NCBI GenBank assembly: GCA_021740905.1
Contig: JAIOYV010000065.1
Coordinates: forward strand, 1-37,645
Length of the DNA: 37,645 nt
Origin: Bacteroidales bacterium
GTDB lineage: Bacteria > Bacteroidota > Bacteroidia > Bacteroidales > M50B96
Direction: 5' to 3'
Shown here in pieces: positions 1-20,048 of this stretch. The notes below the pieces were generated by a model, which was given only the letters and a program-made list of their open reading frames with translations, did not search any database and had not been told where the DNA came from. Numbering within the stretch: the stretch's first letter is position 1; each line of letters opens with the position of its first letter. A program made the position numbers and the translations under genes.

Positions 1-3000
1 TGGCCACATCGGTATTGTTATAAACTGGGTTCACACTTAAAGTAAGCACAACGGTTGAATCACAACCATCAACAGAAGCAAACACTTCGGTATAGGTATT
101 GGCTGTGGTCAAGGTTTGTGTTCCAAAAATATAGGTATCACCATCACATATAGTTGCTGCATCTGTTGTTTGAATATCTGCCGGTTCTGTAATTACAAAA
201 CTTGCTGTGGCTGTCGCACCAACAAAATCTGTAACAACAACAGAATAATTATCAGCTATAACATTTATCAAATCCTGGGTTGTACTATTGTTTGACCAGA
301 GATAAGTATACGGTGTAACACCTGAGGTTACAGAAATATCAATTGCCCCGGTGCTTGCACCAAAACAGTCAACATTTGTTTCAACACCCGAAATTATTGG
401 ATCGGGTGGTGCTAGCTGTCCTGTAACATTAACATTATCAATAGAGAAACCCGATGCGTCTAAACCATTATCATCATGATGGAAAACAATTTGTACAGTA
501 TCGCCAACAAAAGAAGATAAGTTTATAGACATATTGTTCCACACAGTAGTGCTACTTATTGGCATAGTTTGAACTAATTGGAGGTTATTTAGAGTTCCGT
601 CAAGGCTAACATATACAAAGCCTTCTGAACCATAATCCCCATTGAAAAAATAATCCATTTGCAGAGTAACACCAGAATATCCTACAAAACTAATAGGTGG
701 GCTGATGAAGTAATCGACACTTGCATCGCAGACACAAATATCATCGTTTGAGGTTGCGGCAATTGTAGTATTAGAACTTGGTATAGGATACCAGTAAAGC
801 CCATAATTCTCAGCAGCCATTACCCAACCATCGGACCCGGGAGCCTGACTGGTAGACCATCCTGTATTGGTAGGTTGCCCTTCAAAATCTTCCATAAATG
901 GAAGGTTGTAAACTATTTGCGCAGGATTGCTCCCGGTAACCGAAACATTATCGATAGAAAATCCTGACGCTGACCCTCCATTATCGGAATGAAGGAAAAC
1001 CAATTGTATGGTATCCCCAGCAAAAGCCGTGAGGTCTACTGTTGTATTTACCCAGATAAGGACGAGTGGATCAACCGTCATGGTTTTTATTAATTGTAGA
1101 TTGTTCAGTGTTCCATCGGTACTGACATAAACAAAACCAGTGGATCCATACTCACCATTGAAAAAATAATCGAAATTCAATTCAAAAGCATTGAATCCAG
1201 TCAAACTCATTTCAGGGCTTATAAAGTAATCGGCACTTGAATTACAATTGCAAATATCATCGTTTGATGTAGCTGCAATTGTTGTATTTGGATTTGATAA
1301 AGGGTTTGGATACCAATAAGAGCCATAATATTCAGCGGCCATTACCCAACCATCCGAGCCACTTGCCTGGTTAGTAGACCAATCGATGTTGGTGGGTTGC
1401 CCTTCAAAATCTTCGAGAAATGGAATGGTATAAACTGAAGGTGGAGGTAGAATGGTACTTGTAACGGAAACATTATCGATCGAAAATCCACTAGCCGAGC
1501 CCCCATTATCAGAATGAAGGAAAACCAATTGGATACTATCACCCGCAAAAGCTGATAAATCCACGCTAAGATTGTTCCACGTCAAAACAACTGGGGAAAC
1601 CAGCATAGTTTGAATAAGTTGTAAATTATTTAATGTCCCATCTGTACTTACATACACAAAACCCGTGGATCCGTATTCACCATTAAAGAAATAATCAAAA
1701 TTAAGTTCAACGGTAGCCGTATTTGTAAGATCGAGAATCGGGCTCATAAAGTAGTCGGCACTCGAATTACAATTGCAAATATCATCGTTCGATGTAGCTG
1801 CTATTGTGGTGTTAGGACTTGATAAAGGATCGGGATACCAATAAGAGCCATAATATTCAGCTGCCATAACCCATCCGTCCGACCCACTTGCCTGGTTGGT
1901 AGACCAGCCTGTATTGGTGGGTTGTCCTTCAAAGTTTTCCATAAAAGGCAAAGGATAAACGACTGCCACCGGAGGAGCTCCGCCTTCAACCACACTTACA
2001 TTGTCGATTGAAAAACCGGAGGCGGATCCACCATTATCATTATGATGGAAAACTAATTTTACCACGCTCCCTATGTATGCATTAAGATTCACTGTAACAC
2101 TTTGCCATTCTTGATTAGTAGAAAGAGGCATAGTTTGAATCAAGGTCAAATTATTAAGCGTCCCATCAGTACTTACATACACATAGCCCTCTGATCCATA
2201 ATCACCAGTGAAGAAATAATCAAAACTAAGGTTGACCACTCCATAACCAATTAAATTTAATTTGGGGCTGATTAAATAATCCAAACTGGCATCACAATTA
2301 CAGATATCATCGTTTGAGGTAGCCGCAATAGTAGTATTAGGATTTGATAAAGGATCGGGATACCAGTAAGCACCATAATATTCGGCTGCCATTACCCAGC
2401 CATCGGATCCAGTTGCCTGATCTGTAGTCCAACCGGGGTTGGTTGGGCCTCCTTCAAAGTTTTCGTTAAAGGGAAGGGTATAAATATTTTCTGTTGTTTG
2501 GGTTCCTGTAAAGGAAATATTATCGATCAAATTAATATTACCTGGTGCGAAAACCTGCGAGCTGAATAAACTGGCCCCCTGGAAACTTATGTCAATCATA
2601 TTTCCAACAAAAGCGGTAAGATCGTAAGTATGGGTTTGGTAACCGGTCGAATTGCTAACCGGACTAAATTCGATGGTCCCATTGCTATCCGCCACTGGAG
2701 TGCCATTCACCACCAATCGAAACCAAGTATAACTTTGATTGAGAACAAATTTCTGATCCAAATCGAACTGTAGCTCCAAATCGCTTAACAGCGTAGCATC
2801 CACAGCACAAGCGTTCATATAAGCATGATGGCTCACATTATCGTTCCAGGCGTTGGATGAAGTTGTGGTCCCTGGGAAACCTGTCCAACCAGAGGCTGGA
2901 AACCCAGCTCCTGTAAATTCGACATATCCATTACCGGCAGCTGTTTTAAAGGCAGCACCAGCCTGGCTTCCAACTACAAAATCGAAATACACACTTGAGC

Positions 3001-3928
3001 CAGAATTAAAGTTTTCAGTAAAAGGAAATTGATCTATTACCGAAAGACTCTTTATAATAAATGGCCCTTCGTTGTTATTGGTTAAATTTTCATCGGTGGT
3101 AAAAGCAACAGCCAATTCTATGGTATAAATAGCTGCTACAGATAAATCTGCCTTTTGCGAAAAGGTATAATTAACTACCGTACCAGATGTAATAGGTCCA
3201 GGGATAATTTCATTGACAAAGTTTGACCCACCATCGAGGGAATAAGATACCGTGATATTGCTGGCATCGGCTAATCCCAGGTTTTCAATATCAATCGTGA
3301 TGGATTCATTATCAGTAAGCCCACAACCCGTTTGTGGGATGGTCCATCCGATTATACCTACATCGTACGTCCAAGGCTCGAACACGTGGACATTATCCAC
3401 TGCAAAACCAAATGTATTTACACTTGGGGTAGGGTCATTAAACAGAAAACCTACGTTTATAGTGTCATCTACATAAGCTGACAAATCAATACTGATATCT
3501 TCCCAAGTCCCGGTTGAAAACATTGTATGTACAGTATCAGCCCAACTTGCACCATTGTCGAAGCTAATCAGCACATATCCTTGAGTCCCAGAAGTAGATA
3601 AATAAAACCCCAAGAAATCAAGACTAACAATCAAGTGGCCAGATAAATCTAATGCTGGAGAAACCAACAAGTCTGCACTTTTATCACAGCCAACACAAGA
3701 TTCATCGCTTGACATAGCATAAGAACCCTGCCCTGGAATTGGTATCACAAAAGAAGAACTCTGATTTGCACCAATAGTCCAACCATCAGATCCCGGAGCT
3801 GCAGTAACCGTCCAGCCCGATGCTGTGGGAGTGCCTTCAAAGTTTTCCACAAAAGGTAATGTTGTCTGGGCTATTGCACCAGCACTTAACAACATACACG
3901 CAAACAGGAAATAGGAAATAATTCTCAT
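1..3928 (-). CDS. Large secreted adhesin-like protein with tandem cleaved-adhesin/choice-of-anchor-J domains (C-terminus beyond window)
   Basis: The reading frame is open from an ATG at 3928 to the left edge (about 1309 residues), so the 3' end is missing. It starts with a signal peptide (MRIISYFLFACMLLSAGAIA, then Q). A divergent anchor-J/MAM-like domain follows (about residues 22-180: ENFEG, GW, DGW, DNV), then a CARDB-like domain (about 181-290) and a second jelly-roll-like domain (about 295-475). Next come four near-identical domains of about 175 residues (480-1175), each running from PF-x-E-(N/D)-FEG to SGFSIDNV. One SprB-type repeat follows (about 1182-1255). At the edge there is a segment of the CDG..Y.FG...GCDS type, which usually occurs in series, so more such repeats probably lie beyond the window. 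By analogy with its neighbours the product is probably exported by Sec and T9SS and displayed on the cell surface; the sorting domain itself is not visible. The ligand is unknown. Confidence 0.88.
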   Translation of the reverse strand, partial: MRIISYFLFACMLLSAGAIAQTTLPFVENFEGTPTASGWTVTAAPGSDGWTIGANQSSSFVIPIPGQGSYAMSSDESCVGCDKSADLLVSPALDLSGHLIVSLDFLGFYLSTSGTQGYVLISFDNGASWADTVHTMFSTGTWEDISIDLSAYVDDTINVGFLFNDPTPSVNTFGFAVDNVHVFEPWTYDVGIIGWTIPQTGCGLTDNESITIDIENLGLADASNITVSYSLDGGSNFVNEIIPGPITSGTVVNYTFSQKADLSVAAIYTIELAVAFTTDENLTNNNEGPFIIKSLSVIDQFPFTENFNSGSSVYFDFVVGSQAGAAFKTAAGNGYVEFTGAGFPASGWTGFPGTTTSSNAWNDNVSHHAYMNACAVDATLLSDLELQFDLDQKFVLNQSYTWFRLVVNGTPVADSNGTIEFSPVSNSTGYQTHTYDLTAFVGNMIDISFQGASLFSSQVFAPGNINLIDNISFTGTQTTENIYTLPFNENFEGGPTNPGWTTDQATGSDGWVMAAEYYGAYWYPDPLSNPNTTIAATSNDDICNCDASLDYLISPKLNLIGYGVVNLSFDYFFTGDYGSEGYVYVSTDGTLNNLTLIQTMPLSTNQEWQSVTVNLNAYIGSVVKLVFHHNDNGGSASGFSIDNVSVVEGGAPPVAVVYPLPFMENFEGQPTNTGWSTNQASGSDGWVMAAEYYGSYWYPDPLSSPNTTIAATSNDDICNCNSSADYFMSPILDLTNTATVELNFDYFFNGEYGSTGFVYVSTDGTLNNLQLIQTMLVSPVVLTWNNLSVDLSAFAGDSIQLVFLHSDNGGSASGFSIDNVSVTSTILPPPSVYTIPFLEDFEGQPTNIDWSTNQASGSDGWVMAAEYYGSYWYPNPLSNPNTTIAATSNDDICNCNSSADYFISPEMSLTGFNAFELNFDYFFNGEYGSTGFVYVSTDGTLNNLQLIKTMTVDPLVLIWVNTTVDLTAFAGDTIQLVFLHSDNGGSASGFSIDNVSVTGSNPAQIVYNLPFMEDFEGQPTNTGWSTSQAPGSDGWVMAAENYGLYWYPIPSSNTTIAATSNDDICVCDASVDYFISPPISFVGYSGVTLQMDYFFNGDYGSEGFVYVSLDGTLNNLQLVQTMPISSTTVWNNMSINLSSFVGDTVQIVFHHDDNGLDASGFSIDNVNVTGQLAPPDPIISGVETNVDCFGASTGAIDISVTSGVTPYTYLWSNNSTTQDLINVIADNYSVVVTDFVGATATASFVITEPADIQTTDAATICDGDTYIFGTQTLTTANTYTEVFASVDGCDSTVVLTLSVNPVYNNTDVA
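412..2490 (-). repeat. Four tandem copies of a ~525-bp domain-encoding unit
   Basis: The same landmark (ttcaaa, encoding the FEG motif) recurs at 881, 1403, 1928 and 2453, giving periods of 522, 525 and 525 bases. The units remain very similar at DNA level: the segment encoding GSDGWVMAAE-YG-YWYP and the stretch TTIAATSNDDIC are almost unchanged. A fifth, divergent relative lies near the N-terminus (landmark at 3836). Unit length is a multiple of three, so gain or loss of units would keep the frame. Confidence 0.9.
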
Positions 3929-3968
3929 AATTATAATTTATTTATGTCATTCTATAAAATATTGAGCC

Positions 3969-3990
3969 GGATGACCCTTACGAGTCACCC
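3969..3990 (-). promoter_or_regulatory. Hairpin with GTAA tetraloop upstream of the partial adhesin gene
   Basis: On the minus strand GGGTGACTC - GTAA - GGGTCATCC can form a 9-bp stem (two G-T pairs) closed by a GNRA-type tetraloop. It lies 40 bases before the ATG at 3928 and just after the candidate terminator. No T-run follows, so it is either part of the 5' leader or an mRNA-stabilising or processing structure. The function is inferred only from position. Confidence 0.3.
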
Positions 3991-3993
3991 GAT

Positions 3994-4020
3994 TCAAAAA
4001 TTAACTTATTGGAGTTAACC
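3994..4020 (-). terminator. Putative rho-independent terminator of the SprB-repeat gene
   Basis: On the minus strand, about 55 bases after the stop codon at 4073, GGTTAACT and AGTTAATT form an 8-bp stem (two G-T pairs) around a 6-base loop. A run of T follows immediately (TTTTTG). The stem is AT-rich, so the strength is uncertain. Confidence 0.4.
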
Positions 4021-4072
4021 AATTTACACTTTCGTGACTAATGTTAGCAACATTACCCACACTATTATTTCG

Positions 4073-7000
4073 CTATTGAGTTATTACTAACTTCTTAACA
4101 ATAACACGTTTAGCTTCGTCTGAAATTCTTAAATAATAGATCCCTTTCGAAATATTTTGAATATCTAAAAGGATATCGCCATTCACGTTCTTTTGGTAAT
4201 TGCTACTAATCAGGCGTCCGCTTGAATCGTATACCTTCATAGAAGAAATGCTTTCCTGATCAGGAACCGATACATAGAATAACCCGGTATTGTTCGGGTT
4301 CGGATAGACCAAAGTCAAATCTTCCAGCGACTCCAATTTAAAGGCTTCACTTGAATTCTGATTTGAAAAACCACCGATATTCCCTGCCACAGTTGGAGCA
4401 CTTGGTTGTGCAACAAAAGTAGTTGTATAAGTACACCCATTTGCATCGATAATGGTTACCGTAAGGGTAGTACCCGGAATAATATTCTTAACAAACGGTG
4501 CGGTTGCGCCACTCGGCTGCCATGAATAGGTATATGGACTAGTACCACCTGTTGGTACAGCCAAGACAGTAAGATTTGTAGTTCCAAATACAGTTATGTT
4601 GGCTCCTAATGGATCGGGTTCTAGTACAGTAGCTGAGTTGGTTGTGATACAACCATTAGCATCGGTAACCTGAATGCTGTATGTTCCAACTGAAATAGGC
4701 CAAATTATTTCATTGGTTCCTATAGTGTTCAATCCATCACTCCATTCAAATGAATAAGGCCATGTTCCACCAGTCATAACAACAGCTGCAGCACCATCGG
4801 CACCACCATAACAGCTTACATTTGAACTAAACACTTGGCTAATCAATGGATTCGGGGCAGATATTGTAATTGTATTTGTTGTCATACAATTATTTGCATC
4901 ACTAACTACAACGGCATAAGTACCAGCTCCTAATCCCGAAAGATCTTCCGTATTATAAGTTCCATTATTCCAGTTGAATGTATATGGCATTGTACCGCCA
5001 GAAACTGTCAGATCTAATTCGGCATTCTGATCACTACTACAAAGAACTCCTTGTGCCAGGATTAAACCATTCGTAAAGGCATTGGGCTGAGTAATAGTAA
5101 TTACCTGACTTTGGAAGAAACATCCATTTGCATCCCAAATCTTTACAGAATAGCTTCCAGCTTTCAGGGCAGTAAGATTCTGACTGTTTGCCAAATTCGA
5201 CCATAGGAAAGTATATGGTGAGGTGCCACCTGTAATTGAGATGGTAATAGAACCATCATACACTTTGTAACAGCTAAGGTTTGTAGATGTGTATGTTATT
5301 ACTATTGGATCAGGTTCTGTAATTGTATAGGTTTCAACCTTCATACAGGCATTTGCATCGCTAACAGTAACCATGTAAGTACCGGCCATAAGGTTGCTGC
5401 GATCTTTTGCAGTTACCCCGTCGGCCCAACTATAAGCATAAGGCAAAACTCCACCTGTAACAGTAAGGGTAATACTTCCATTCATACCACCATTACAGGA
5501 AACATTAGATGTAGCAGCACTCAATAAGATTTCAGCAGGTTCGGCTATGGTAACCGTTCCGGTAACCGAACAAGAGTTCGCATCGCCTACTGTTACTGTG
5601 AAAGTACCAGCTGCCAAATTAATCAAATCCTCATCGGATGAACTATTATCCCAAACAATAGAATATGGCATAACACCACCCGCGATAGTTAAATCGACAC
5701 TTCCGTTGTGAGCACCATAACAGGTAATATTGGTTCCTACCAAAGTAACCTGCAACTGTGCATTCATGGTAACATCAACAGAACCATTTGCCATACATCC
5801 ATTTGCATCGAGTACATCAACCATATAAGTTCCGGCCATTAAATTAGCAGGATCTTCATCGGTAGAACCATTGCTCCATAAGTAAGCATAAGGTGCGGTT
5901 CCTCCCGTAACAGCTAAATCAATGCTTCCATCGTTGCTGCAAAGTGGATCGGTAACGTTGAACGTCAGAGCTAACATAGCAGGCTGTGTAACAGTCACAC
6001 TCTGGACAGCAGTACACAGATTAGCGTCCTTAATGGTCACAGTGTAAACACCAGCAGCCAAATTGCTTATGTCTTGCATCACGCTCATACCCCAATTATA
6101 GGTATAGGGAGCTGTCCCACCTGTTACACTCAAGTCAATAGAACCGTTGGCCATGCCATTGCAACTAACATTGTTAACAACATAAGTCGGTGCAATAGGA
6201 TCAGGCTGTGTTACTTCAACTGCCAACGTTTGTGTTGCTGAAGTTGCATCGGTAACTGAAACGGTATAGGTACCAGCTGCAAGTCCTGATCTGTTCATTG
6301 TAGTTGAACCATTATCCCACAAATAGGTGTAAGGAGAAACCCCATTGCTTATAGCCAAATTAATAGCCCCATTCGCTGAACCATTACATGAAGGTGCGGT
6401 GACCGTAGGTGTAATGGTAACAGGAGTATAAGCTGCTGGTTCTGTCAAAGTAAAAGATTGAACCATTGAACATCCATTCAAATCAGTAATTGTCACACCA
6501 TAATTACCGGCAGTTAAATTAAGCCTATAATAACTATGTGACCCATTGGCCCAAGTATATAGATATGGAGGTGTTCCGCCAGTTGGAAATAAAACTACAA
6601 AACCGTTTGATGCTCCATAAGTACTGACATTATAAGGACCATATGTTGAAATATAGCTTGTTAATGTTAATGGCGTAGGCTCGGTTATTATATAGGTGTT
6701 TATTACGGAGCAGCCCTTTGTATCAGTAACTGTTGCATAATAAGTACCGCCAGCCAAATTATATTTATCCTGGGTAGTCCCACCATTCGACCAATTGTAT
6801 GTGTAAGGGGCTGTTCCTCCCGATACCGTTTGGTCAATAGAACCATTGTTGGCACCGTTGCAGCTTACATTAGCCATAACTGCTGTTACATTTAACGGAG
6901 CTGGTTGGGTAACAATAAAGGTTTTGTTTTTTGAACAAGTATTCACATCGCTTACAGTAATGGTATATGTCCCGGCAGTTACACCACTAAGATCTTGTGT

Positions 7001-10000
7001 AATTGCAGAATTCGACCAGATGTAAGAATAGGCAGGTGTGCCACCAGAAACACTCACATTGATTGCCCCATTGTTATAGCCATTACAGGTAACATTCGAT
7101 ATTACCCCTGTAATATTAATGGCAGCAGGCTGATTTATGAAATATAATGCAGAAGCAGAACATCCATTATAATCAGTCACCATGACAGAATAACCACCTG
7201 CACCCAATCCAGATACATCTTCGCTGGTAGCACTATTCGACCAGTAATAAGTGTAAGGCGCTGTTCCTCCGGATACAGTAAGGTTAATAGAACCATTCTG
7301 ATATGAATTACAGGTCGCATTAGCAACTGAAGATGTTAACGACAATGCAGTACTTTGACTTATCGTGTACATGCCCGATAACACACAGTTGTTGGCATCG
7401 GTAACCGTAAAGCTATAAGTCCCGGCTACCACACCTAAAAGATCTTCGCTTATACTTCCGTTCGACCATTCGTATGTATATGGAGTAGCTCCACCAAGCA
7501 CTGTTAAGTCGATAGCTCCATCGTTGCCACCAGAACAAGCTACCCCTGTTAATACTGCACTTTCAGTTAACATATCAGGTTGATCGATAACAAAGGTTCC
7601 ATAAGCCATACAGCCATTAACATCGCTAACAGTTACACCATACGTTCCGATTGACAAACTGGCAATATCCTCTGTGGTTTCACCATTCGACCATAAGAAA
7701 GAGTAAGGCATTGTACCACCCATTACAGATAAATCAACAGAACCATCGGTGCCGCCATTACAGTTAACATCGTTAACCATTCCGCTAGCTTCGAGGAGTG
7801 CGTTTTGGAAGATTTCATACATAGCAGTCATCGAGCATGAATTTGCATCCATAACAGTAACGGAATACATGCCACTGGCTAATCCTGAAATATCTTCTGA
7901 CATAGCACCATTTGACCACTCAACCACATAAGGCATTACGCCCCCGGTAATGGTCAAGTCAATAGCCCCAGTCATATCACCAAAGCAAAGAACATTGGTT
8001 GTCGACCCAGCAAGCATAATTTCAGTAGGTTCAGTAATGGTAAAACTCAACATTACATCTTCGTATACAGAAAAGAAGGATGATGTACCAGTAAGTGAAA
8101 CCAATCCACTAATCCCGTTCGTTGAATAGCTACCTAAGTTCGGGAAAATAGGTGCATATACTGCGGTCATATCAATAATCTGCTGATCGGAAGCACGCCA
8201 TACTTTCCAGATAAAAGTTTCTCCATCCTGGAAACCATTGTCCATTCCACTTTCAGCACCCCATGCAGTAACAGCTGTTCCACCTGAAACACCAGTCCAT
8301 TCCACATATCCACCACAAACTAAAACTCCTGATTGATCAAAGAATACTCCAACATAATCACCAGGATTAAGAGAAGTTCCATTTATTTGAGCATCAGGAA
8401 TAAATATGGTATGATTTGCACCGGTATTTGGAGCTGTCCAATTGAAAGCAGTACCAGTAGGTCCTGTACCATACGTATATGAAACAGTAACATCATAATT
8501 ACCTGGAGCCAAACCGGAAATATCTTCGGTAGTTTCGCCATTGCTCCATTCAAAATCATAAGGAGGTGTACCGCCTAAAATAGTCAAGTCGATTGAACCA
8601 TCAGTTGAACCGAAGCAAGAAACACCATATCCATTAAAATCTGAAACAACGCCACTTCCTGATAATTGAGCAGGCTCACTAACTGAATACATGGCAACAA
8701 CAGAACAGCTGCTTGCATCAGTAATTGTAACATAGTAATCACCAGCTATAAGTCCGACAATATCTTCAGTAGCATCACCACTCGACCAGATAAAAGTATA
8801 AGGGGCCAAGCCTCCTACTACAGTAATATCTATCGATCCCTGGTTTCCACCATAGATCATTGCGTCAACAACAACACCAGTAGTAGTCATTCCAGCCGGC
8901 TCGTTAATAGTAAATGAAGCACTTGCTGCACATCCGTTTACATCGACTACTGAAACCGTGTAGGTTCCCATCATTCCATTCATTAAATCTTCGTTGGTTG
9001 AACCATCGGACCATGAGTATGTAAATGGAGCTGTTCCTCCAACTACACTTAGATCTACAGTACCATCGTTGCCACCAAAGCAGGCTACATCAGAAACAAC
9101 ACCATTTGCAACAAACAGTCCTGGTTCTACAACTACTGCGCTACCATAATATTCACATGAATTGAAATCGGTAATTGTATAATTATAAGTACCTCCAATC
9201 AAGTTTGTAAGAATAAAATCTGTTGCGGCATTGGCCCAAACTATTCCATAAAGACCAATCCCACCAGCAGGTACAACTTCAATCATTCCATTATTTCCAC
9301 CATAGCAATCTATATTGGTTATCGTTTCGGTTACTGATAATGCAGCTGGCTCGCTAATAACAGCAGCGAAATCCATGGTACAACCATAGGCATCGGTTAC
9401 CGTCAACGAATAACTACCGGCAACTACGCCACTTAAATCTTCATTTGTTGATCCATCTGACCATAAGAATGTATATGGTGATGTTCCTCCAGAAACAAAA
9501 AAGTTAATATACCCCGTGGGATCACCCGCGCATAATGGGTCTGATGAAGTCATTCCATACGCAAACGCATCTGGTTCTGTAATGGTGAATGATGCCATCC
9601 ATACGCAACCATTGGCATCGGTAACTGTGACATCGTAGGTTCCGGCAACAAGGTTGCTTAAATCTTCTGAAACATCAGAAGTAGACCACATAAATGAATA
9701 GGGTGCAACACCACCAGAAACGGTAAGATCGATAGCTCCAGTGGCATCTCCGTTACACAATACATGGGTAAGCGTTTCAGCAACAACCAAAGCGGCTGGT
9801 TCTAAAACGTCGTAGCTTCCATAGAATTCGCAGCCGTTGGCATCGGTAACTGTGACACCATAAGTTCCACCACTAAGGTTCATTAAATCTTCTGTCATTT
9901 CACTGTTCGACCAGGCAAAGGTATAAGGTGAAATTCCACCTGAAACAGTAAGATCAATGGATCCATTGGCATCGCCATTACACATTATATTGACTATGGC

Positions 10001-13000: not shown

Positions 13001-14752
13001 GTAATGAGTGCCAGCAGCAAGACCGGCAACACTATTTGTTGAACCTCCATTGCTCCATGTAAAAGTATAAGGTGATACACCACCCGAAACAGTCACATCA
13101 ATTAAACCATCGCTAGCACCATTGGTGCTAACATTGTACCCGCTATAGTCTGAAAATATTGGGGTTACAATTATTTCAGCTGATTCGGTAATTGTATATG
13201 AATCGGTAAATGTGCAGTTATTAGCATCAAAAATAAGGACTTCATAAATTCCAGGGCCTACACCGGAAATATCCTCGGTGCTTGCTGAATTGCTCCATAC
13301 AATATTAAGTGGAGCAACTCCACCAGAAATTGTTAAATCGATAGCTCCATTTTGATTTCCGTAGCAATCGACATTTGTAATTGTGCTTGAAGCCGATAAG
13401 GCTGCTGGTTCTGAAACTTGCGCCGATCCAGTGAACATACATCCATTGGCATCAGTCACTGTATAAGCATAAGTGCCAGCCATAACATTGGCTATATCTT
13501 CAGTTGAAGAACCATTCGACCAGGAATATGTATAAGGCATCGTTCCGCCTGTAACAGTTAAATCAATACTCCCGGTTGCATCTCCATTACATAACACTTC
13601 TGTTGCAGTAGCTGTTGCACCTAATTCGGTAGCTTCGGTTATTGTATAGCTATTGCTTATTGTACAATTATTTCCATCGGTGATGGTCAAGCTATAACTA
13701 CCGGCTCCCAAATTGGTAATATCTTCGTTTGTCGAACTATTGCTCCATGAGAAAGAATATGGAACTGTTCCGCCCGAAACAGTAATATCAATTGCCCCCG
13801 TGGTATTGCCATAGCATAGGATATTGGTACTATTTTGTGTCAGTGCTAATTCTGTTGGCTCACTAACCGAAAATAATGCTGAACCTGTGCAACCATTATC
13901 ATCTGTAACCGTAATGGAATATGATCCGGCCAAAATTCCGGTAAGGTCTTCTGACGAAGAGCCATTAGACCATAGATAAGTATAAGGGGAGCTCCCTCCT
14001 GCTACTGTCATGTCGATCGCACCTGTTGCTGCGCCAAAGCAGTCCGCATTGGTCGCAATATCAGTAAGTGCTATTTCACTAGGCTCGGTAATGGTAATAT
14101 TGAGCACCACATTATCGGATACATCTGAAACGGTAACCGTATACGTACCGGCACAAATTCCACTTAAATCTTCAACTGATGCTCCATTCGACCATAAGTA
14201 AGAATAGGGAGTTGTTCCATCGCTTGCTGTAACATCAATCGCCCCATCGCATAAACCAAAACAACTCACATTTGTTTCCAAAGAAGATGCACTCAGAGGA
14301 TTAGAACCGGCGGTTCCTTCCAATGTTAAAATACCGCTCATCGCATTGGTTGTATAGAAACCTCCACCAAACGAATAAGTTGCAACCATATCAACTACGG
14401 CTCCAGTGCTTGCCACCCATACTTTCCAGCTAAATGCTTCATTGTTTTGAAAACCATTATCCACACCGGATTCGGAACCCCATGCACTAAGGGCTGTTAC
14501 ACCTCCTGTATATTCAACATATCCGCCGCATGTAAGCGTACCTGATAAATCGAAAAACACACCGACATAATCTCCACTGCTAATGGATGTTCCGTTGATT
14601 GTTACTGTTCCTGGCTGAATCAAAATGGTGTGGTTAACACCTGTATTTGCATAAGTCCAAGGTAGGGTTTGAGCATTTATTGATGTTGCAATTGTCAACA
14701 TCAACAGAGTTACCCAAACATTCTTCAAAGATAAATAGTGCTTCATAATCAT
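4073..14752 (-). CDS. Giant SprB-repeat cell-surface protein with T9SS type A sorting domain
   Basis: A 3559-residue protein. The signal peptide (hydrophobic stretch ending SINAQ) leads into a ~120-residue NTG-type module (about 31-150). About 40 SprB-type repeats of roughly 75 residues follow, with pattern CNG..-G.IDL.VSGG..PY.Y.WSNG...ED...L.AG.Y.VTVTD.NGC...-EP. The same NTG module is inserted inside repeat 7 (about 673-804) and repeat 24 (about 2101-2222). The C-terminus is a T9SS type A sorting domain: VYPNPN, KVYDSSGRL, GIYYLRI, VKKLVITQ. SprB of Flavobacterium johnsoniae is a repeat-rich gliding adhesin; family resemblance here is clear, but a role in gliding is only inference. The first ATG (14752) is followed two codons later by a second (14746) with AGGA five bases before it; MKHYLSL may be the real start. 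Confidence 0.93.
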   Translation of the reverse strand: MIMKHYLSLKNVWVTLLMLTIATSINAQTLPWTYANTGVNHTILIQPGTVTINGTSISSGDYVGVFFDLSGTLTCGGYVEYTGGVTALSAWGSESGVDNGFQNNEAFSWKVWVASTGAVVDMVATYSFGGGFYTTNAMSGILTLEGTAGSNPLSASSLETNVSCFGLCDGAIDVTASDGTTPYSYLWSNGASVEDLSGICAGTYTVTVSDVSDNVVLNITITEPSEIALTDIATNADCFGAATGAIDMTVAGGSSPYTYLWSNGSSSEDLTGILAGSYSITVTDDNGCTGSALFSVSEPTELALTQNSTNILCYGNTTGAIDITVSGGTVPYSFSWSNSSTNEDITNLGAGSYSLTITDGNNCTISNSYTITEATELGATATATEVLCNGDATGSIDLTVTGGTMPYTYSWSNGSSTEDIANVMAGTYAYTVTDANGCMFTGSAQVSEPAALSASSTITNVDCYGNQNGAIDLTISGGVAPLNIVWSNSASTEDISGVGPGIYEVLIFDANNCTFTDSYTITESAEIIVTPIFSDYSGYNVSTNGASDGLIDVTVSGGVSPYTFTWSNGGSTNSVAGLAAGTHYLTVTDALACTIVESYILTEPAPIGFGATGLVANASCFSVCDGSIDLTVVGGTTPYTYSWSNGASIEDVSGLCSDTYDVTVTDASGGAPVYQPFDWTFVNTGNNHTIFISTGIVTIDGSAIQPGDVIGVFYNSGGNMVCAGYIAWNNASTACTAWGSEPGLNNGFQANEAFNWKVWRSIQGDVVDMTATYQGLPFANQGNYITNGMSGLATLTGTPSGGGGGGVSIIESFTVTEPAQLLASGTAINNLCYGGMTGSIDLSVSGGTPPYLYNWSNSAVTEDISGLAAGYYDVIVSDANQCSTTFGITITQPTEIMATAVATDVLCFGDMNGSIDLTVSGGTMPYSFSWSNGGNTEDLSGIGAGLYAVTVTDANGCIYMTSATVNQPVELSSLIDSHQNVTCFGYSNGYAHVLVSGGTAPYTYLWSNGATSEEISGVVAGLYYYTVTDANSCTLPGSITLFQPDELVGSGMVSDYNGYSVSINGASDGWIDLSILGGTTPYTYAWSNGATTQDLNNIPAGNYSYTVTDINGCTATGSFTLTQPNPSSTLQISAAITHVACNGNATGAIDLSISGGTAPYDVEWSNTAMTEDLSGLEAGTYMVTVMDLASNIATGSYTVNQPTAIGAVESITDVMCNGDLTGSIELTVSGGIAPYTYSWSSGASTKDIMNIGTGMYDVTITDANMCEYFGSYTVSGPAELMATEVTADILCNGAATGSIDLTISGGVMPYSFAWSNGAATEDLSAIAAGAYAVTITDGNMCSYIGNYTIYEPAAIMASEAITNVMCNGILSGGIDLSVSGGVGPFTFAWSNGAANEDIIAVGAGTYEVTISDANQCEYYGNYTITEPDAISAIETITNVLCNGASTGAIDLMVSGGAAPYNFSWSNSEVTEDISGLMAGTYNVIITDANNCVYVGNYSISEPAVLDATEAIVEVLCNGAATGSINMSVSGGVAPYSFAWSNSETSEDLMNIMAGMYDVTITDANGCEFMNSYTISEPAALMVSEAIVNIMCNGDANGSIDLTVSGGISPYTFAWSNSEMTEDLMNLSGGTYGVTVTDANGCEFYGSYDVLEPAALVVAETLTHVLCNGDATGAIDLTVSGGVAPYSFMWSTSDVSEDLSNLVAGTYDVTVTDANGCVWMASFTITEPDAFAYGMTSSDPLCAGDPTGYINFFVSGGTSPYTFLWSDGSTNEDLSGVVAGSYSLTVTDAYGCTMDFAAVISEPAALSVTETITNIDCYGGNNGMIEVVPAGGIGLYGIVWANAATDFILTNLIGGTYNYTITDFNSCEYYGSAVVVEPGLFVANGVVSDVACFGGNDGTVDLSVVGGTAPFTYSWSDGSTNEDLMNGMMGTYTVSVVDVNGCAASASFTINEPAGMTTTGVVVDAMIYGGNQGSIDITVVGGLAPYTFIWSSGDATEDIVGLIAGDYYVTITDASSCSVVAMYSVSEPAQLSGSGVVSDFNGYGVSCFGSTDGSIDLTILGGTPPYDFEWSNGETTEDISGLAPGNYDVTVSYTYGTGPTGTAFNWTAPNTGANHTIFIPDAQINGTSLNPGDYVGVFFDQSGVLVCGGYVEWTGVSGGTAVTAWGAESGMDNGFQDGETFIWKVWRASDQQIIDMTAVYAPIFPNLGSYSTNGISGLVSLTGTSSFFSVYEDVMLSFTITEPTEIMLAGSTTNVLCFGDMTGAIDLTITGGVMPYVVEWSNGAMSEDISGLASGMYSVTVMDANSCSMTAMYEIFQNALLEASGMVNDVNCNGGTDGSVDLSVMGGTMPYSFLWSNGETTEDIASLSIGTYGVTVSDVNGCMAYGTFVIDQPDMLTESAVLTGVACSGGNDGAIDLTVLGGATPYTYEWSNGSISEDLLGVVAGTYSFTVTDANNCVLSGMYTISQSTALSLTSSVANATCNSYQNGSINLTVSGGTAPYTYYWSNSATSEDVSGLGAGGYSVMVTDYNGCSASALYFINQPAAINITGVISNVTCNGYNNGAINVSVSGGTPAYSYIWSNSAITQDLSGVTAGTYTITVSDVNTCSKNKTFIVTQPAPLNVTAVMANVSCNGANNGSIDQTVSGGTAPYTYNWSNGGTTQDKYNLAGGTYYATVTDTKGCSVINTYIITEPTPLTLTSYISTYGPYNVSTYGASNGFVVLFPTGGTPPYLYTWANGSHSYYRLNLTAGNYGVTITDLNGCSMVQSFTLTEPAAYTPVTITPTVTAPSCNGSANGAINLAISNGVSPYTYLWDNGSTTMNRSGLAAGTYTVSVTDATSATQTLAVEVTQPDPIAPTYVVNNVSCNGMANGSIDLSVTGGTAPYTYNWGMSVMQDISNLAAGVYTVTIKDANLCTAVQSVTVTQPAMLALTFNVTDPLCSNDGSIDLAVTGGTAPYAYLWSNGSTDEDPANLMAGTYMVDVLDANGCMANGSVDVTMNAQLQVTLVGTNITCYGAHNGSVDLTIAGGVMPYSIVWDNSSSDEDLINLAAGTFTVTVGDANSCSVTGTVTIAEPAEILLSAATSNVSCNGGMNGSITLTVTGGVLPYAYSWADGVTAKDRSNLMAGTYMVTVSDANACMKVETYTITEPDPIVITYTSTNLSCYKVYDGSITISITGGTSPYTFLWSNLANSQNLTALKAGSYSVKIWDANGCFFQSQVITITQPNAFTNGLILAQGVLCSSDQNAELDLTVSGGTMPYTFNWNNGTYNTEDLSGLGAGTYAVVVSDANNCMTTNTITISAPNPLISQVFSSNVSCYGGADGAAAVVMTGGTWPYSFEWSDGLNTIGTNEIIWPISVGTYSIQVTDANGCITTNSATVLEPDPLGANITVFGTTNLTVLAVPTGGTSPYTYSWQPSGATAPFVKNIIPGTTLTVTIIDANGCTYTTTFVAQPSAPTVAGNIGGFSNQNSSEAFKLESLEDLTLVYPNPNNTGLFYVSVPDQESISSMKVYDSSGRLISSNYQKNVNGDILLDIQNISKGIYYLRISDEAKRVIVKKLVITQ
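8080..8450 (-). repeat. NTG-type module, copy 3, inserted in SprB repeat 24
   Basis: It has the same landmarks (NTGANHTIFI, GDYVGVFFD, CGGYVEWTG, AWGAE, DNGFQDGE, WKVWRAS, IDMTAVY, TNGISGLVSL). It begins after the DVTVSY strand of repeat 24, and the repeat closes afterwards with LSFTITEP. The insertion point matches that of copy 2. Confidence 0.75.
12340..12732 (-). repeat. NTG-type module, copy 2, inserted in SprB repeat 7
   Basis: It has the same landmarks as the N-terminal copy (NTGNNHTIFI, GDVIGVFY, CAGYI, AWGSE, NNGFQANE, WKVWRS, VDMTATY, TNGMSGLATL). It ends in a glycine run (SGGGGGGV), after which the last strand of the interrupted SprB repeat resumes (SFTVTEP). The module therefore sits between the penultimate and last strand of its host repeat. 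Confidence 0.75.
14305..14665 (-). repeat. NTG-type module, copy 1 (N-terminus of SprB-repeat protein)
   Basis: A ~120-residue module with landmarks W-x-Y/F-x-NTG-x-NHTI, G(D)-x-x-GVFFD, CGGYVE, AWGSE, DNGFQ-NE-F-WKVW, VDM-ATY and TN-x-SG-L-L-GT. It follows the signal peptide directly. I do not know a name for this domain; the landmarks are seen directly. Confidence 0.75.
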
Positions 14753-14807
14753 CCTTTTAAAATTATTAATATTTATTTTTCAGTTGTCTGTATCCATAAA
14801 TGATAAT

Positions 14808-14836
14808 ACTTTTTCCCTAAAAGCTAGGGAAAAAGT
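14808..14836. terminator. Perfect 12-bp hairpin between the two complete giant genes
   Basis: ACTTTTTCCCTA and TAGGGAAAAAGT form a perfect 12-bp stem around the 5-base loop AAAGC. It lies 29 bases past the stop codon of the 1727-residue gene and about 56 bases before the ATG of the next. The T/A runs lie inside the stem and no separate T-run follows on the minus strand, so it could be a terminator, an attenuator or a processing/stability element. Confidence 0.5.
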
Positions 14837-14864
14837 ACAAAATAATGATATGTTATTTAATAAA

Positions 14865-17800
14865 TTATTTTTCCATACATAATTTTTCTGTTATATATTT
14901 ATTGGGTGTTTCTAATGTATAATAGTAAATACCAGCTTGTAAACTTCCCCCATTTAACTCAACATTGTGAACACCTTCGGGATAATTTCCTGTGCAAATT
15001 TCCTGAACGAATTCACCCACTAAATTATAAAGTAATATTCTAATATCCATACTTTCGGGTAAATAAAATTCGATTGTTGTTCTATCGCGGAATGGGTTAG
15101 GGTAGTTGGACAGTGAAATACCCTCCGTATTTACCGATGCAAATTTACCAATTACAGCCTGTGAATTTACAGAGTAAACTGCTGATCCTGAGATAAAATA
15201 ATCAACTTTCAAGTCAGTGGTTACATACGAAAAACGATCCCATTTTTTGAGTGTGAATTCTTGTCCTTCCTGTATGCCATCGACAGAATTTGTATAGGGA
15301 TTATTGCCCCAAATTGTAAGAATTATATTAGAATTTTGGTAAACAGAACTTCCAAGAAGTACTCCATTTTGGTCGAAAACAGCAATTTCATCATTTACAT
15401 TCAGTATTCCTTCTGCTACATTTCGTGGAATTGCCAATGTCATATTATGGCCCGTATTCTCGCAACTATGAAAATATGTCGGCTCTAATTTGTTGCTCCA
15501 TGATACTTGTGACTTTGTTGTATTAGCTGGATAAGTGAACAAAAAGCTATTGGTTGAAAGTATTTGATAGCCTCCGCCAGGTAACATATTGCCAATTCCA
15601 TTATATTGAAAACTGGGCCAGTAAACATTGCCATTACCATCTTTAACGATCTCAACATTTAATACTACATTACTTAACATATCGACAAGTGATGCAGGCG
15701 AAGTTCGCAAGTAGCCCATAATGCTCCAACCAGAAGGTATAGTAAAGGGTGAAAGTTCGGGCTGAACTTGTATGCCCACTACTTCTAATGTATCCGCTGC
15801 GTTCATAAAAATTTGATATCCCTCTCCAATGGTCAAATCACCAACATTATTGAAATTAAATGTGGGCCAATATACATTTCCATTACCATCTTTAACAATA
15901 TTTATTTTAGTTACCACATCAGCAAATACATCTATTAAATCAGCTTCAAATGGATCTATATAGGATGAAATCATGCTCCATCCATTTACCAATACAATGG
16001 ATTGAACAGCCTGACTCGATTCTTTTGTTATTGTAATGGTGTCGGTAGAAGTACAACCATAAGAATTGGTTATCTCAACCCAATAAGTATAGGATCCAAG
16101 TGCGAGCAAATTGCCATCAACAGGGAGTATCATCGATACCGAACCTGTTGACCATAAGTATGAGGCATAACCAACTCCTGCATCCAGTATAATAACAGTA
16201 TCATCAATAACCATATCCGGTCCCAGATCAATTAGTGGAAGCGGGTTTACAATAATGTTCATATCATCAGAACCATTACAGCCATATTGATCGGTAACTG
16301 TAACATAATATGTACCAGATGTCGCAGCTTGTATTGATTGTGTCTGCTCTCCTCCTGACCAATTATATTGAAAGAAACTTCCCGATCCGGCATCAAGGGT
16401 TGCTGTTGCTCCACTACAAATTTCCAGGTCTGGCCCCAAGTCAACATTTACAGAATGAAAACTAATCGTAACCACATCGCTCGCTTCGCACAATTGGTTC
16501 GTAACCGTAACCGAATAAGTTCCATCGGTTGATACAGTTATTAATGAAACAGTGGCTCCATTACTCCATATATAATTGTCGGCAATTCCGGCATTAAGAC
16601 TTACTAAATCTCCATCGCATTTATCCTGGTTAGCCCCTAAATCAACTATTGGTAATGGGTTTATCTGTATATCAACCTGATCGATGCTTTCGCAGCCCCC
16701 ATTTGAAGATACGGTCACTGCATATTGACCCGTTTGTAAAACATTTATGGTTGAAGTTGTGGCACCATTGCTCCATGTATACGAAGCCGCTATTCCTGCA
16801 TTAAGGATAACAACATCTCCCTCACATCCAACCTGATTTGGACCTAAGTCCACACTTGGACTGGCCTCTATTATAACTTGCTGGTTTTCAACACCAATAC
16901 ACCCACCCGCACTTGCAGTATAAGTAATTGTGTGTGTCCCAACACCTGCTAACAAAGGATTAAAGGTATTCCCATTTACACCTGGACCCGAAAAAGTTCC
17001 TCCAGATGGTGTACCGGTAAGGGTCAAAGGTTGGTTAGATAGACATAGGCTAACCGTTCCACCAACCTCAAATATGGATTCTATTGAGTTTTTTGGTTGT
17101 TGGCTTAACGAAACGGTGTAATTTGAAAAACCGGTACCTGTTCCAAAGTTGGGAGTAATTTCCCACCAGCTATTGTTCCATCCATCACCATAAGTATCGT
17201 GTGCAATGAATTTATAATTTCCAAAAGGCAGATAAATTGTTCCGTTGTAAGAATAACCATACGTACTCGTGCCCGAAGGAGAGCTAAGGAAAACAGTCCC
17301 TGCATCATCTACAATTTCCCATGATTGTTCTTGTGGCCAATTCGAATTGTAATACACTTGAACCAAAACCGGAACTAAAGCCGGGCCGCTGTAAAGGCCA
17401 GAAAAACTTACTTCCGAACCTGTCACTGTAACTGATTGGGTTGAAACATTCGAACAGCCTGTAAGAGCATCGAAATAGGAATAAGTAATAACATGGCTGC
17501 CTGGTCCAGCATCAGTTGGATTGAATGAACTTCCAACAATGCCATCTCCAGAAAAGATTCCACCGACAGGGCTTCCTGTCAATGATACATCTGGATCGTA
17601 CAAACAGTAAAATGAATTTAAACCAGAAATAGATACTGTGACCGGGGCTGAATGTTCAACCAAAAAGCTTAGTGTATCGTTTGTGTTATCAATGTCGTCC
17701 TGAAGAGCTATTGCAATGGTAATAATATATTGGCCTAAGGTAGATAAATCGGCTGTTTGCGGAAAAGAATAATTTAAAGTATTGCCTGATTCAACTATAG

Positions 17801-20048
17801 TTGAAACAGTGTTTGATACAAAGATACCACCATTAATACTATAACTTAAATCGAAATTGGAAATACTTGCCCCTCCAAGATTCTGTAACTGAACTTCTAT
17901 TGACTCTGTAGAGGTTAATCCACAACCTGACTCGGGTGAGACCAATGAAACGATTGCTGCATCGGGAGGGTCAAGTTCTTGAATTACAATATTATCTATA
18001 TAAGAAACATTTCCAGGTGCGTATTGTAATGAGTTAAATTTATTACATCCCTGAAAAGTAATCGTAAACTGAGTTCCTGCATACGAGGACAAATCGAATC
18101 TATGGGTTGTAAAAGGGTCGCTGTAAGAAGTTTGAGGATGAAAATTTTGAATTCCCTGATCACTTGTTACAGGTACACCATTTACTAAAACCCTAAGCCA
18201 TGTAAAATTTGTTCCTGTCCTATAAAATTGCTTTAGATCAAACAACAATTCAACCGTAGAAAGCTGCGTGGCATCGACCATGCATGATTGTGTACTTGAA
18301 TGAAAAACAGAATTCGTATTCCATGCTTCTGTTTCAGTAGTAGCACTTGATGACCCAGCCCAAGGTTTATTGGTGTTGCTCGAATCCCATATTACAGAGG
18401 CTCCCCCCTCCAATTTTATAGCATAATTTGAATCAAAATAATTAAGGCTGACCTCGCCAAATCTCTCTGAAGCGAAACCCCAATCAGTGTTTCCACTTTC
18501 GAAATCTTCGGAATAAGGAAAAGTATTGATAGTGCCTAAATGCGAAATTTCAACATTGTTAAGTGAGTTATTGCTTATATTGAAATCGCCAGTTGCTGTT
18601 ACAGTTGCAGAACAAATAAACTGTCCGACAGTAGAAAAATTGGCTGTTGCTGTAAATGTATAATCATAGAATCCCCCAGCGGGTATCAACGACGAGACCG
18701 ATTCGGTTATGTAATTCGCTCCACCATCAATTGAATAAGCAACCGTATAATTGGTGACATTCGAAGCCCCTTTGTTCTTTATTCTTACGGTTACATTCTC
18801 GGCACTTGATAAACCACACGCATTATTCGCAGGATACACCCACTCAACCAATGCTAAATCATTGATTGGATTCATTGTAACACTTACATTGTCAACAAAT
18901 AAATTGTAGCCATATCCTGATACTCCTGTAAACTTAACATTTACTACATTGTTTTCGAATGCAGTCAGATCAATGCTTTCCTGAACAAAACTTCCAGGAG
19001 AAACATCCAGCGCTCCGTCGTTCGAAAATAGATCAATGCCGGTTTTCGACCAAACGGTATCCCAAGTCGCACAATTATCAGTTGAAATTAGAACATGAAA
19101 TTCGTCATTCGGAGCTTGATAGCTATAGCCACTCGACCATGAAAAATTTAATGTAGCCGGATTGTACAAATTGAGGGCTGGGGTAATCATTTGAGCACTT
19201 TCGCCTTGCCAGTAAAAGAAATTGCAAAAGGCCGAGGAGTTTGAATAAGAGGCCCAGTCGTTTACCCCATCAAAGGTCCAATTTGCCGGTGGCCAAGTTG
19301 AAAAATTTTCTGACCAGGGAAATGAAGAAATGCTAGATAATGAAATGATCTCACTATTCACTGTGTCGTTATTTGCAATAAGGTCACCGGTAGCAGTAAC
19401 TATTGCCATGCAATCATAAGTACCCGATGCTGCAAAATTAGCACTTTGCGAAAAAGTGAAATTAACCAACTCACCAGAATTTACACTGCCTGTATACGAT
19501 TGAGTAACAAAACTGGTCCCTCCATTTATTGAATACTTTAAAGAAAAACCATTGACAGCAGCGGAACCATAATTCCGTAGTTGAACTGTAATGTTTTCAC
19601 TTGATGTTAAGGAGGCGGAAGAAACCGGACTAACCCAGCTTACCATTCCAAGTTCGGTTGTGGATGATGACAAAACAGTAAAATCAGTTTCCTGATAATC
19701 ACCACTTGGAAAATATACCTGACCGGTTGAAATACCAGATGATGGAACAATTTGATACCAACCAGCAGCTGATGTCCATCCATCACTCTCCGAATCATAG
19801 GCTTTAAAAACATACTCGCCTGGATATAGACTTACATTTCCATTTTGCGAAAATGTGTTATCAACCAATCCAGGCCCACCAGACAGCAAAACATTACCGT
19901 CCAATTTATTAACAACCTCCCAAGAACACTCGGTGGCGTAACCACCGTAAAAAACCTGAAGAAGAACAGATTCCTGGGAAAATGCAGGTTGCGTAACAAT
20001 CATTGCTAATAGCAAACTTGATACGATTCTGAATAAATACTTTGTCAT
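14865..20048 (-). CDS. 1727-residue multidomain secreted protein with T9SS type A sorting domain
   Basis: Signal peptide (about 1-25, ending AFSQ). Approximate order: a 'GDGW' module (26-128; D-x-x-SDGW), CARDB-like domain (130-235), anchor-J/cleaved-adhesin-like domain (240-395), second CARDB-like (395-500), a jelly-roll-like domain with VDATQLS and APGNVSYIDN (500-690), third CARDB-like (690-800), Ig-like segment (800-885), second GDGW module (885-985), a second Ig-like segment, and four PKD/Ig-like repeats of the form DLGPN..C.G....AG...Y.WSNG (about 1063-1340). Two copies of a NGWSMISSY...IVKDGNGNVYWP module (1343-1510) and an NTG-type module (1518-1640) follow. The C-terminal T9SS domain (about 1643-1727) has NYPNPF, LYNLVGE and GIYYYTLE. 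It is probably an extracellular or surface-anchored binding protein; no catalytic motif is recognisable. It is the first of the three giant genes in transcription order. Confidence 0.92.
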   Translation of the reverse strand: MTKYLFRIVSSLLLAMIVTQPAFSQESVLLQVFYGGYATECSWEVVNKLDGNVLLSGGPGLVDNTFSQNGNVSLYPGEYVFKAYDSESDGWTSAAGWYQIVPSSGISTGQVYFPSGDYQETDFTVLSSSTTELGMVSWVSPVSSASLTSSENITVQLRNYGSAAVNGFSLKYSINGGTSFVTQSYTGSVNSGELVNFTFSQSANFAASGTYDCMAIVTATGDLIANNDTVNSEIISLSSISSFPWSENFSTWPPANWTFDGVNDWASYSNSSAFCNFFYWQGESAQMITPALNLYNPATLNFSWSSGYSYQAPNDEFHVLISTDNCATWDTVWSKTGIDLFSNDGALDVSPGSFVQESIDLTAFENNVVNVKFTGVSGYGYNLFVDNVSVTMNPINDLALVEWVYPANNACGLSSAENVTVRIKNKGASNVTNYTVAYSIDGGANYITESVSSLIPAGGFYDYTFTATANFSTVGQFICSATVTATGDFNISNNSLNNVEISHLGTINTFPYSEDFESGNTDWGFASERFGEVSLNYFDSNYAIKLEGGASVIWDSSNTNKPWAGSSSATTETEAWNTNSVFHSSTQSCMVDATQLSTVELLFDLKQFYRTGTNFTWLRVLVNGVPVTSDQGIQNFHPQTSYSDPFTTHRFDLSSYAGTQFTITFQGCNKFNSLQYAPGNVSYIDNIVIQELDPPDAAIVSLVSPESGCGLTSTESIEVQLQNLGGASISNFDLSYSINGGIFVSNTVSTIVESGNTLNYSFPQTADLSTLGQYIITIAIALQDDIDNTNDTLSFLVEHSAPVTVSISGLNSFYCLYDPDVSLTGSPVGGIFSGDGIVGSSFNPTDAGPGSHVITYSYFDALTGCSNVSTQSVTVTGSEVSFSGLYSGPALVPVLVQVYYNSNWPQEQSWEIVDDAGTVFLSSPSGTSTYGYSYNGTIYLPFGNYKFIAHDTYGDGWNNSWWEITPNFGTGTGFSNYTVSLSQQPKNSIESIFEVGGTVSLCLSNQPLTLTGTPSGGTFSGPGVNGNTFNPLLAGVGTHTITYTASAGGCIGVENQQVIIEASPSVDLGPNQVGCEGDVVILNAGIAASYTWSNGATTSTINVLQTGQYAVTVSSNGGCESIDQVDIQINPLPIVDLGANQDKCDGDLVSLNAGIADNYIWSNGATVSLITVSTDGTYSVTVTNQLCEASDVVTISFHSVNVDLGPDLEICSGATATLDAGSGSFFQYNWSGGEQTQSIQAATSGTYYVTVTDQYGCNGSDDMNIIVNPLPLIDLGPDMVIDDTVIILDAGVGYASYLWSTGSVSMILPVDGNLLALGSYTYWVEITNSYGCTSTDTITITKESSQAVQSIVLVNGWSMISSYIDPFEADLIDVFADVVTKINIVKDGNGNVYWPTFNFNNVGDLTIGEGYQIFMNAADTLEVVGIQVQPELSPFTIPSGWSIMGYLRTSPASLVDMLSNVVLNVEIVKDGNGNVYWPSFQYNGIGNMLPGGGYQILSTNSFLFTYPANTTKSQVSWSNKLEPTYFHSCENTGHNMTLAIPRNVAEGILNVNDEIAVFDQNGVLLGSSVYQNSNIILTIWGNNPYTNSVDGIQEGQEFTLKKWDRFSYVTTDLKVDYFISGSAVYSVNSQAVIGKFASVNTEGISLSNYPNPFRDRTTIEFYLPESMDIRILLYNLVGEFVQEICTGNYPEGVHNVELNGGSLQAGIYYYTLETPNKYITEKLCMEK
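15130..15505 (-). repeat. NTG-type module, copy 4 (near C-terminus of the 1727-residue protein)
   Basis: Landmarks match the three modules in the neighbouring SprB-repeat gene: ENTGHNMTLAI, ND-E-IAVFD-NG, GSSVY, TIWGNN, VDGIQEGQEFTLKKWD, and a closing Y-VNS segment. It is more divergent than those three are from each other. Here it stands just before the sorting domain, not inside a SprB repeat. Confidence 0.6.
15520..16020 (-). repeat. Duplicated GWS/VYWP module in the 1727-residue protein
   Basis: Two consecutive units of about 75-80 residues share the order GWS-(M/I)-(I/M)-S/G-Y, a DM/DV-x-x-V stretch, IVKDGNGNVYWP, F-(x)-N-N/G-(V/I)-G, and G-GYQI. The IVKDGNGNVYWP block is identical in both copies. 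I cannot assign a named family with certainty. Confidence 0.6.

Follow-up and report, generated by a model that had tools for sequence, protein, structure and literature searches.

Shared domains in adjacent giant surface-protein genes raise the question of whether such genes have built one another by local exchange or belong to an inherited locus with partners of its own. Our case is the window, a 37,645-nucleotide stretch of DNA that represents contig C134 of G000, the 6.54-Mb genome (160 contigs) of an uncultured Bacteroidota bacterium, and that starts at the contig's base 1. A sequence-only reading of this stretch attributed the modules shared by three of its genes to local domain shuffling, proposed that the genes form a shared surface system, and found no PorP/SprF-type partner. 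Our data support the shared system, with a gene order conserved between genera and an adjoining type B/PorP pair, and speak against shuffling as the cause of the mosaic. It is probable, in our view, that five genes (P3, P2, P1, a small PKD protein and PorP) make up an old surface locus passed on vertically, that the window contains its upstream portion, and that its products form a static, wall-anchored adhesive layer.

The three large genes are indeed neighbouring and co-oriented, lying head to tail on the - strand (as do all features given below) in the order P3 (the 1727-residue protein, 14865-20048), P2 (the SprB-repeat giant, 4073-14752) and P1 (the partial gene, 2-3928). P3 is a T9SS type A surface protein and the uvrC-proximal first gene of the locus. 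It carries a CARDB domain (best stretch residues 140-231, 19356-19631; PF07705, E 9.4e-10), a jelly-roll or "VDAT" module (residues 507-691, 17976-18530), a GW double domain for which no Pfam family was found (residues 1345-1512, 15513-16016), an NTG' module of a C-terminal subfamily (residues 1526-1638, 15135-15473) and a T9SS type A C-terminal domain (14880-15104). P2, a type A protein of 3559 aa, has three NTG modules (residues 32-146, 14315-14659; residues 679-797, 12362-12718; residues 2105-2222, 8087-8440) and ends in a type A domain at 4082-4309 (TIGR04183, E 1.8e-18). Truncated where the contig stops, P1 retains 1309 N-terminal residues of a giant protein: a first MAM/choice-of-anchor-J domain (residues 21-187, 3368-3868), a CARDB-like domain below Pfam's cut-off (3104-3310), a jelly-roll module (residues 298-475, 2504-3037), four tandem choice-of-anchor-J (MAM) domains (401-2485), an SprB repeat (281-379; PF13573, E 7.8e-11) and the start of a tandem "CDGDTY..VDGCDSTV" repeat (2-169). 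By inspection, the N-termini of all three giants are signal-peptide-like. TIGR04183 scores, set against a cut-off of 23 bits, were 66.3 for P2, 29.4 for P3 and 40.5 for the half of P1 that we place on contig C139 (see below).

Upstream of P3 lie genes that we take, from their sequences, to be uvrC, ade and mnmG; the presumed uvrC (20271-22094), whose orthologues were matched by BLAST, served as the synteny anchor. A terminator-like hairpin between P3 and P2 (14806-14838, a consensus match only) argues against a single transcript. Promoter-like sites were not enriched (56 versus 58.3 in shuffles), and terminator-like sites numbered 16 versus 12.5 in shuffles (sd 3.2).

That these genes belong together is supported by gene order in other genomes. 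G001, which represents another genus of the same family (it corresponds to JAGYLP01, Bacteroidales bacterium M50B96), carries the complete order mnmG-ade-uvrC-P3-P2-P1-PKD/type B-PorP on a single contig, with a P2 orthologue of about 3200 aa in the same place in the locus. Its P1 frame is interrupted once by a short stretch with stops (L092:7218-7427) and was read as two pieces; the interrupting stretch reads unlike its surroundings and is possibly an assembly error. P3 follows uvrC directly in all four genomes with a P3 orthologue that were examined, our own and three others with full-length orthologues: G001 (41%), G002 (49%; corresponding to JANTGP01, Bacteroidetes bacterium bin10073) and G071 (43%; corresponding to JAPLDU01, a LacPavin MAG). 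In both G002 and G071 the contig ends soon after P3, and the PKD/PorP end of the locus is on another contig. When 149 genomes of the order were searched with a profile of the long PorP, five gave matches at E <= 1e-60, and every one of the five has an SprB-repeat giant with a type A tail, then the PKD/type B gene, then PorP; TIGR04183 was found in all five of these P1-type giants.

It is conceivable, though in our judgement unlikely, that nothing more than ordinary gene order is at work, with three of many T9SS proteins left adjacent by slow rearrangement alone and having no joint function. Similar giants number dozens across G000, and the housekeeping neighbours mnmG, ade and uvrC likewise keep their order. 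Yet the giants are absent after uvrC in five of the six order-level genomes fetched around mnmG (over many kb in G019, G010 and G032, and over 2.6-4 kb only in G013 and G037), the sixth being G009, where the contig ends before uvrC. Moreover, the triplet of SprB giant, PKD protein and PorP is kept together in G071 and G087, which belong to other families than G000.

The part of the locus beyond P1 must be sought outside the window, and the 3' half that this gene lacks is most likely to be found on contig C139. At its end, C139 has a 2667-aa open frame on the - strand, without a 5' end where P1 is without a 3' end. This frame has P1's tandem repeat as well as SprB repeats and two NTG modules; it also has a type A tail and a stretch that, on inspection, resembles PKD. 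The two frames are complementary halves, both cut within the same repeat, inside which C134 and C139 each break off; this complementarity and the gene order in G001 are the grounds for joining the contigs. Directly downstream of the C139 frame is a gene for a PKD protein of 448 aa that ends in a type B tail (TIGR04131, 65.4 bits; CHU_C, E 7e-23), followed by one for a 510-aa PorP/SprF protein that exceeds the curated cut-off (TIGR03519, 217 bits versus 90.55; PF11751, E 4e-59) and starts about 9.5 kb inside the contig. The reported lack of a PorP/SprF-type partner therefore holds true inside the window but most likely not for the locus, which the contig break interrupts.

The tails of the giants bear on what such a partner could be for. 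Passages of two papers (PMC12618676, PMC12635249) describe type A substrates as using a shared carrier, PorV, and type B substrates as relying on a PorP/SprF carrier that is dedicated to them and remains attached. Since the giants have type A tails, they need no PorP, and its absence from the window is uninformative on P2 and P3. The PorP beyond the window most likely serves the PKD protein. After its barrel come a linker that on inspection looks like a coiled coil and, at the C-terminus, a SPOR-like domain: the SPOR model (PF05036) matches the tails of all five PorP proteins at E <= 1, the best at 0.0014, with two scores of 17 and 18.5 bits against a Pfam cut-off of 21. When the PDB was searched with a profile built from the five tails, no SPOR structure came up, and the best match was the nuclease NucT (E 0.023). 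According to passages on static type B proteins, these are thought to be tied to the wall via PorP and PorE (PMC9143113), and PorE is described as having a peptidoglycan-binding domain (PMC7192894). A TPR and/or PD40 protein follows five of the ten other PorP genes of G000, four of the five with OmpA, and no such PorE-like neighbour (TPR, PD40 or OmpA) was found beside the C139 PorP.

These observations suggest how the locus may operate. The three giants would exit through Sec and then through the T9SS by the general PorV route, and the PKD protein would be picked up and retained by a PorP of its own, with a SPOR-like tail that may grip peptidoglycan. Together, the giants and the PKD/PorP pair would constitute a static, wall-anchored adhesive layer, in which the pair may be the base or receptor for the SprB giant. 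It is from gene order alone that we infer the link between such a PKD/PorP base and the giants.

A contrasting possibility is that the locus serves gliding, with the SprB-repeat giant as a motility adhesin and the neighbouring PorP as its track-riding carrier, as in Flavobacterium johnsoniae. SprB repeats with an adjoining PorP/SprF gene are compatible with this, as is the detection of SprA and GldJ in the three genomes tested (GldJ just over the cut-off in all three). However, the giants end in type A rather than type B tails, and passages on F. johnsoniae describe SprF as linked to the moving track (GldK) through a Cys-X-Cys tail (PMC12635249), a motif present in none of the 11 PorP-like proteins of G000; the PorP of this locus ends in a SPOR-like tail. 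We find a gliding function of this locus quite unlikely, although GldJ and SprA may point to gliding by other proteins. Elsewhere in G000, a PorP-like gene sits directly before GldJ (C65, L063). Another, on C62 (L064), sits directly before a gene for an FGE-sulfatase-domain protein that we presume to resemble GldK.

The sharing of modules between the giants is itself real. The CARDB-like and jelly-roll modules reported as common to P1 and P3 form part of a longer MAM-like/CARDB/jelly-roll unit (35% over residues 285-688, E 9.9e-52), though CARDB exceeds the Pfam cut-off only in P3, and the VDAT-LS, TW-R-VNG-PV and APGN-IDN motifs are legible in both translations. P1 and P2 do have the SprB repeat in common (one is recognised by Pfam in P1; our own model counts 40 in P2 and 28 in P1 plus C139), and NTG is common to P2 and P3, with three copies in P2 and one divergent relative in P3 (31-34% identical). 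What did not hold up is the statement that all pairwise links fall in adjacent genes, as the modules occur genome-wide. Jelly-roll matches number 8 in G000 (window copies counted), 5 in G001 and 2 in G002; NTG matches number 117 (window copies counted), 35 and 39, respectively; and GW matches at E <= 1e-10 number 87 in G000 (window copy counted), 17 in G001, 32 in G002, 49 in G071 and 108 in G087. The fetched stretches of G000 contain 427 SprB repeats, and matches across that genome, selves included, occur at 238 places for P3 and 262 for P1.

Phylogenies place the shared unit by gene and not by neighbourhood. In a tree of the three-domain unit (MAM/CARDB/jelly-roll, about 455 aa; 13 hand-picked rows), the P3 copies make up a clade across G000, G001, G002 and G071 (99/98), and the P1 copies make up a separate one across G000 and G001 (100/99). 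Of the four other G000 loci, three are each partnered by a relative's copy. Uniting G000's P1 and P3 in a clade was rejected (AU p = 7.9e-5), and a clade of all P1 and P3 copies against other loci was disfavoured (p = 0.039). For this unit, the check by module phylogeny that the sequence-only reading had proposed finds the window copies closer to homologues in other genera than to each other, the outcome that the reading had named as refuting it. The jelly-roll alone gave a like picture with less support, the neighbour clade being not quite rejected (p = 0.059). Rows for the module trees were domain hits, only from the loci fetched, that passed length and E-value filters, with near-identical copies removed (58 reduced to 25 for jelly-roll, 176 to 105 for NTG and 43 to 18 for anchor-J). 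A quick NTG tree with few columns put the P3 copy in a 33-row C-terminal subfamily and the P2 copies in another of 72. In the anchor-J tree, P1's four later domains form a weakly supported group (82/76) that also includes a copy from contig C5, the nearest outside P1 and 70% identical to one of them, and three anchor-J domains of G001's P1 group among themselves (99/96); these groupings point to duplication inside the gene and exchange between distant loci. At C5:62307-63059 (L032, L078), within a 6331-aa frame, lies a stretch that matches an anchor-J domain of P1 together with its SprB repeat at 56%, and another of P1's anchor-J domains at 70%; it is likely a product of exchange between distant loci.

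Module swapping between neighbouring genes of the cluster, as the source of the mosaic, is in this light decidedly unlikely, although several comparisons lean towards it. In G001, P1's NTG is most similar to an NTG of P2 (63.8%, the top value of nine compared), and the group joining that copy with P2 copies has an SH value of 88, unstarred, in the NTG tree. The best foreign match of the SprB repeats of P1/C139 lies in P2 for 10 of 28 (expected 2.8), and that of the P2 repeats lies in P1/C139 for 8 of 40 (expected 2.9). Regional exchange can evidently happen, as two giants about 5 kb apart on C46 show a strong mutual SprB bias (6 of 12, expected 0.2). Against this stand the rejected neighbour clade and the grouping of P1 and P3 units with counterparts in other genera, the separate NTG subfamilies of P2 and P3, and the C5 location of the closest outside copy of P1's later anchor-J repeats. 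P2 is also a hub for SprB matches, with equally strong ones from C17, C5, C123 and C144, and its commonest foreign partner is on C144 (9 of 40, expected 1.0), whereas the truly adjacent giants of C61 show no significant SprB bias in the one direction listed (9 of 41, expected 6.5). These SprB counts refer to a pool of fetched stretches chosen mostly from listed P1 matches, and the binomial figures assume independence among repeats, an assumption that does not hold. A stronger bias of P2 towards P1/C139, seen in a partial pool (14 of 40, with a neighbour share of the pool of 0.13), was set aside: after 18 more regions were added it fell to the 8 of 40 given above and was matched by genes on other contigs. 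Module sharing here appears to reflect mainly the repeated use, throughout the genome, of one set of domains, together with duplication within genes, rather than exchange between neighbours. The C61 giants are adjacent frames of 5352 and 6119 aa (L080, L081); those of C46 (L085) are frames of 3045 and 2591 aa with other frames between.

It is very improbable that the C139 genes come from another locus and merely resemble the missing part, leaving the window without a PorP partner, for although no common bases were found between the contig ends of C134 and C139 and SprB giants are present on many contigs, P1's last 56 residues (the start of the tandem repeat) match only C139 (82% and 77%) among the matches listed, and in G001 a P1 N-terminus stands beside a C139-type C-terminus on one contig, bar the interrupted stretch.

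The GW double domain near the P3 C-terminus (about 165 aa, with no Pfam match) was observed in many other proteins of G000. NTG' follows it in P3 and about 30 others among the loci examined, while 20 proteins end 0-11 residues after GW; in 13 the protein stops exactly where GW does, and 12 of these 13 finish in YPAN or YPPN. The sample of such endings consisted of 19 regions (L257-L275), picked because matches seemed to stop there, plus four loci, and for two of the 20 proteins the fetched stretch does not include the start. In a scan of ten of them, no T9SS type A, B or C tail was found, and these ten are very unlike one another in their N-terminal parts. Varied proteins ending at GW are what a domain for sorting or anchoring at the C-terminus would be expected to show, albeit in a sample selected for this feature, and we regard GW as a candidate for a new domain of this kind.

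Structure models had mean pLDDT values of 95.6 for NTG and 85.3 for the GW/NTG' unit. Foldseek returned nothing at E <= 0.001 for the NTG model and two adhesin chains for the GW/NTG' unit (UafA, best E 2.7e-4), with TM-scores of 0.12-0.16. The best VIA-align Z scores (6.9 and 6.6, both to 5ek8) are in the chance range, with the GW half barely covered, and Pfam and PDB sequence searches with NTG and the GW/NTG' unit gave only weak, scattered matches. We claim no function for either from these results.

Apart from NTG and GW, for which no Pfam model was found, the named parts of the locus come from known families; it is their arrangement that sets the locus apart from known systems. The sprB operon of Flavobacterium johnsoniae has the order sprC-sprD-sprB-sprF. 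In our locus, too, large surface-protein genes stand in a run, and a gene of the PorP/SprF family is found a short way downstream of an SprB-repeat giant. Our locus differs in that repeats and type B tail are on two proteins, the giant being type A, and in that PorP has a SPOR-like tail and no Cys-X-Cys motif. It also resembles the PorP-PorE-PG1035 complex of Porphyromonas gingivalis and the porE-linked PorP loci of F. johnsoniae, as described in passages of PMC9143113 and PMC12618676, in which a PorP-like barrel retains its type B substrate and is attached to peptidoglycan, as we suppose to be the case here; unlike those systems, it has no adjoining PorE gene, and a possible wall-binding part appears fused to PorP itself. 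With ordinary T9SS type A multi-domain adhesins the giants share a signal-peptide-like start, repeats and a TIGR04183 tail, but such adhesins lack the order conserved between genera that fixes the SprB giant with a type B/PorP pair.

We tentatively suggest that the locus could be a split, wall-anchored counterpart of SprB/SprF, a possibility that we rate below even chances. The repeat adhesin and the type B anchor signal would now be separate proteins and the barrel would have gained a peptidoglycan-binding SPOR tail, turning a motility design into a fixed layer that needs neither PorE nor a gliding track. In the literature searched, which excluded most subscription journals and all preprints, no paper was found that paired "SPOR domain" with SprF or PorP, and the combination of SprB repeats on a type A protein, a separate type B PKD protein and a SPOR-tailed PorP in fixed order was not found in print.

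Modules shared by adjacent giants are easily misread as local shuffling, and in this case that reading is replaced by a conserved locus with nameable partners. If the PorP tail does bind peptidoglycan, it would represent a second, one-gene way of fixing T9SS type B proteins to the wall, and it would help in telling moving from static SprB-type adhesins by sequence alone, the former by a Cys-X-Cys tail and the latter by a SPOR tail.
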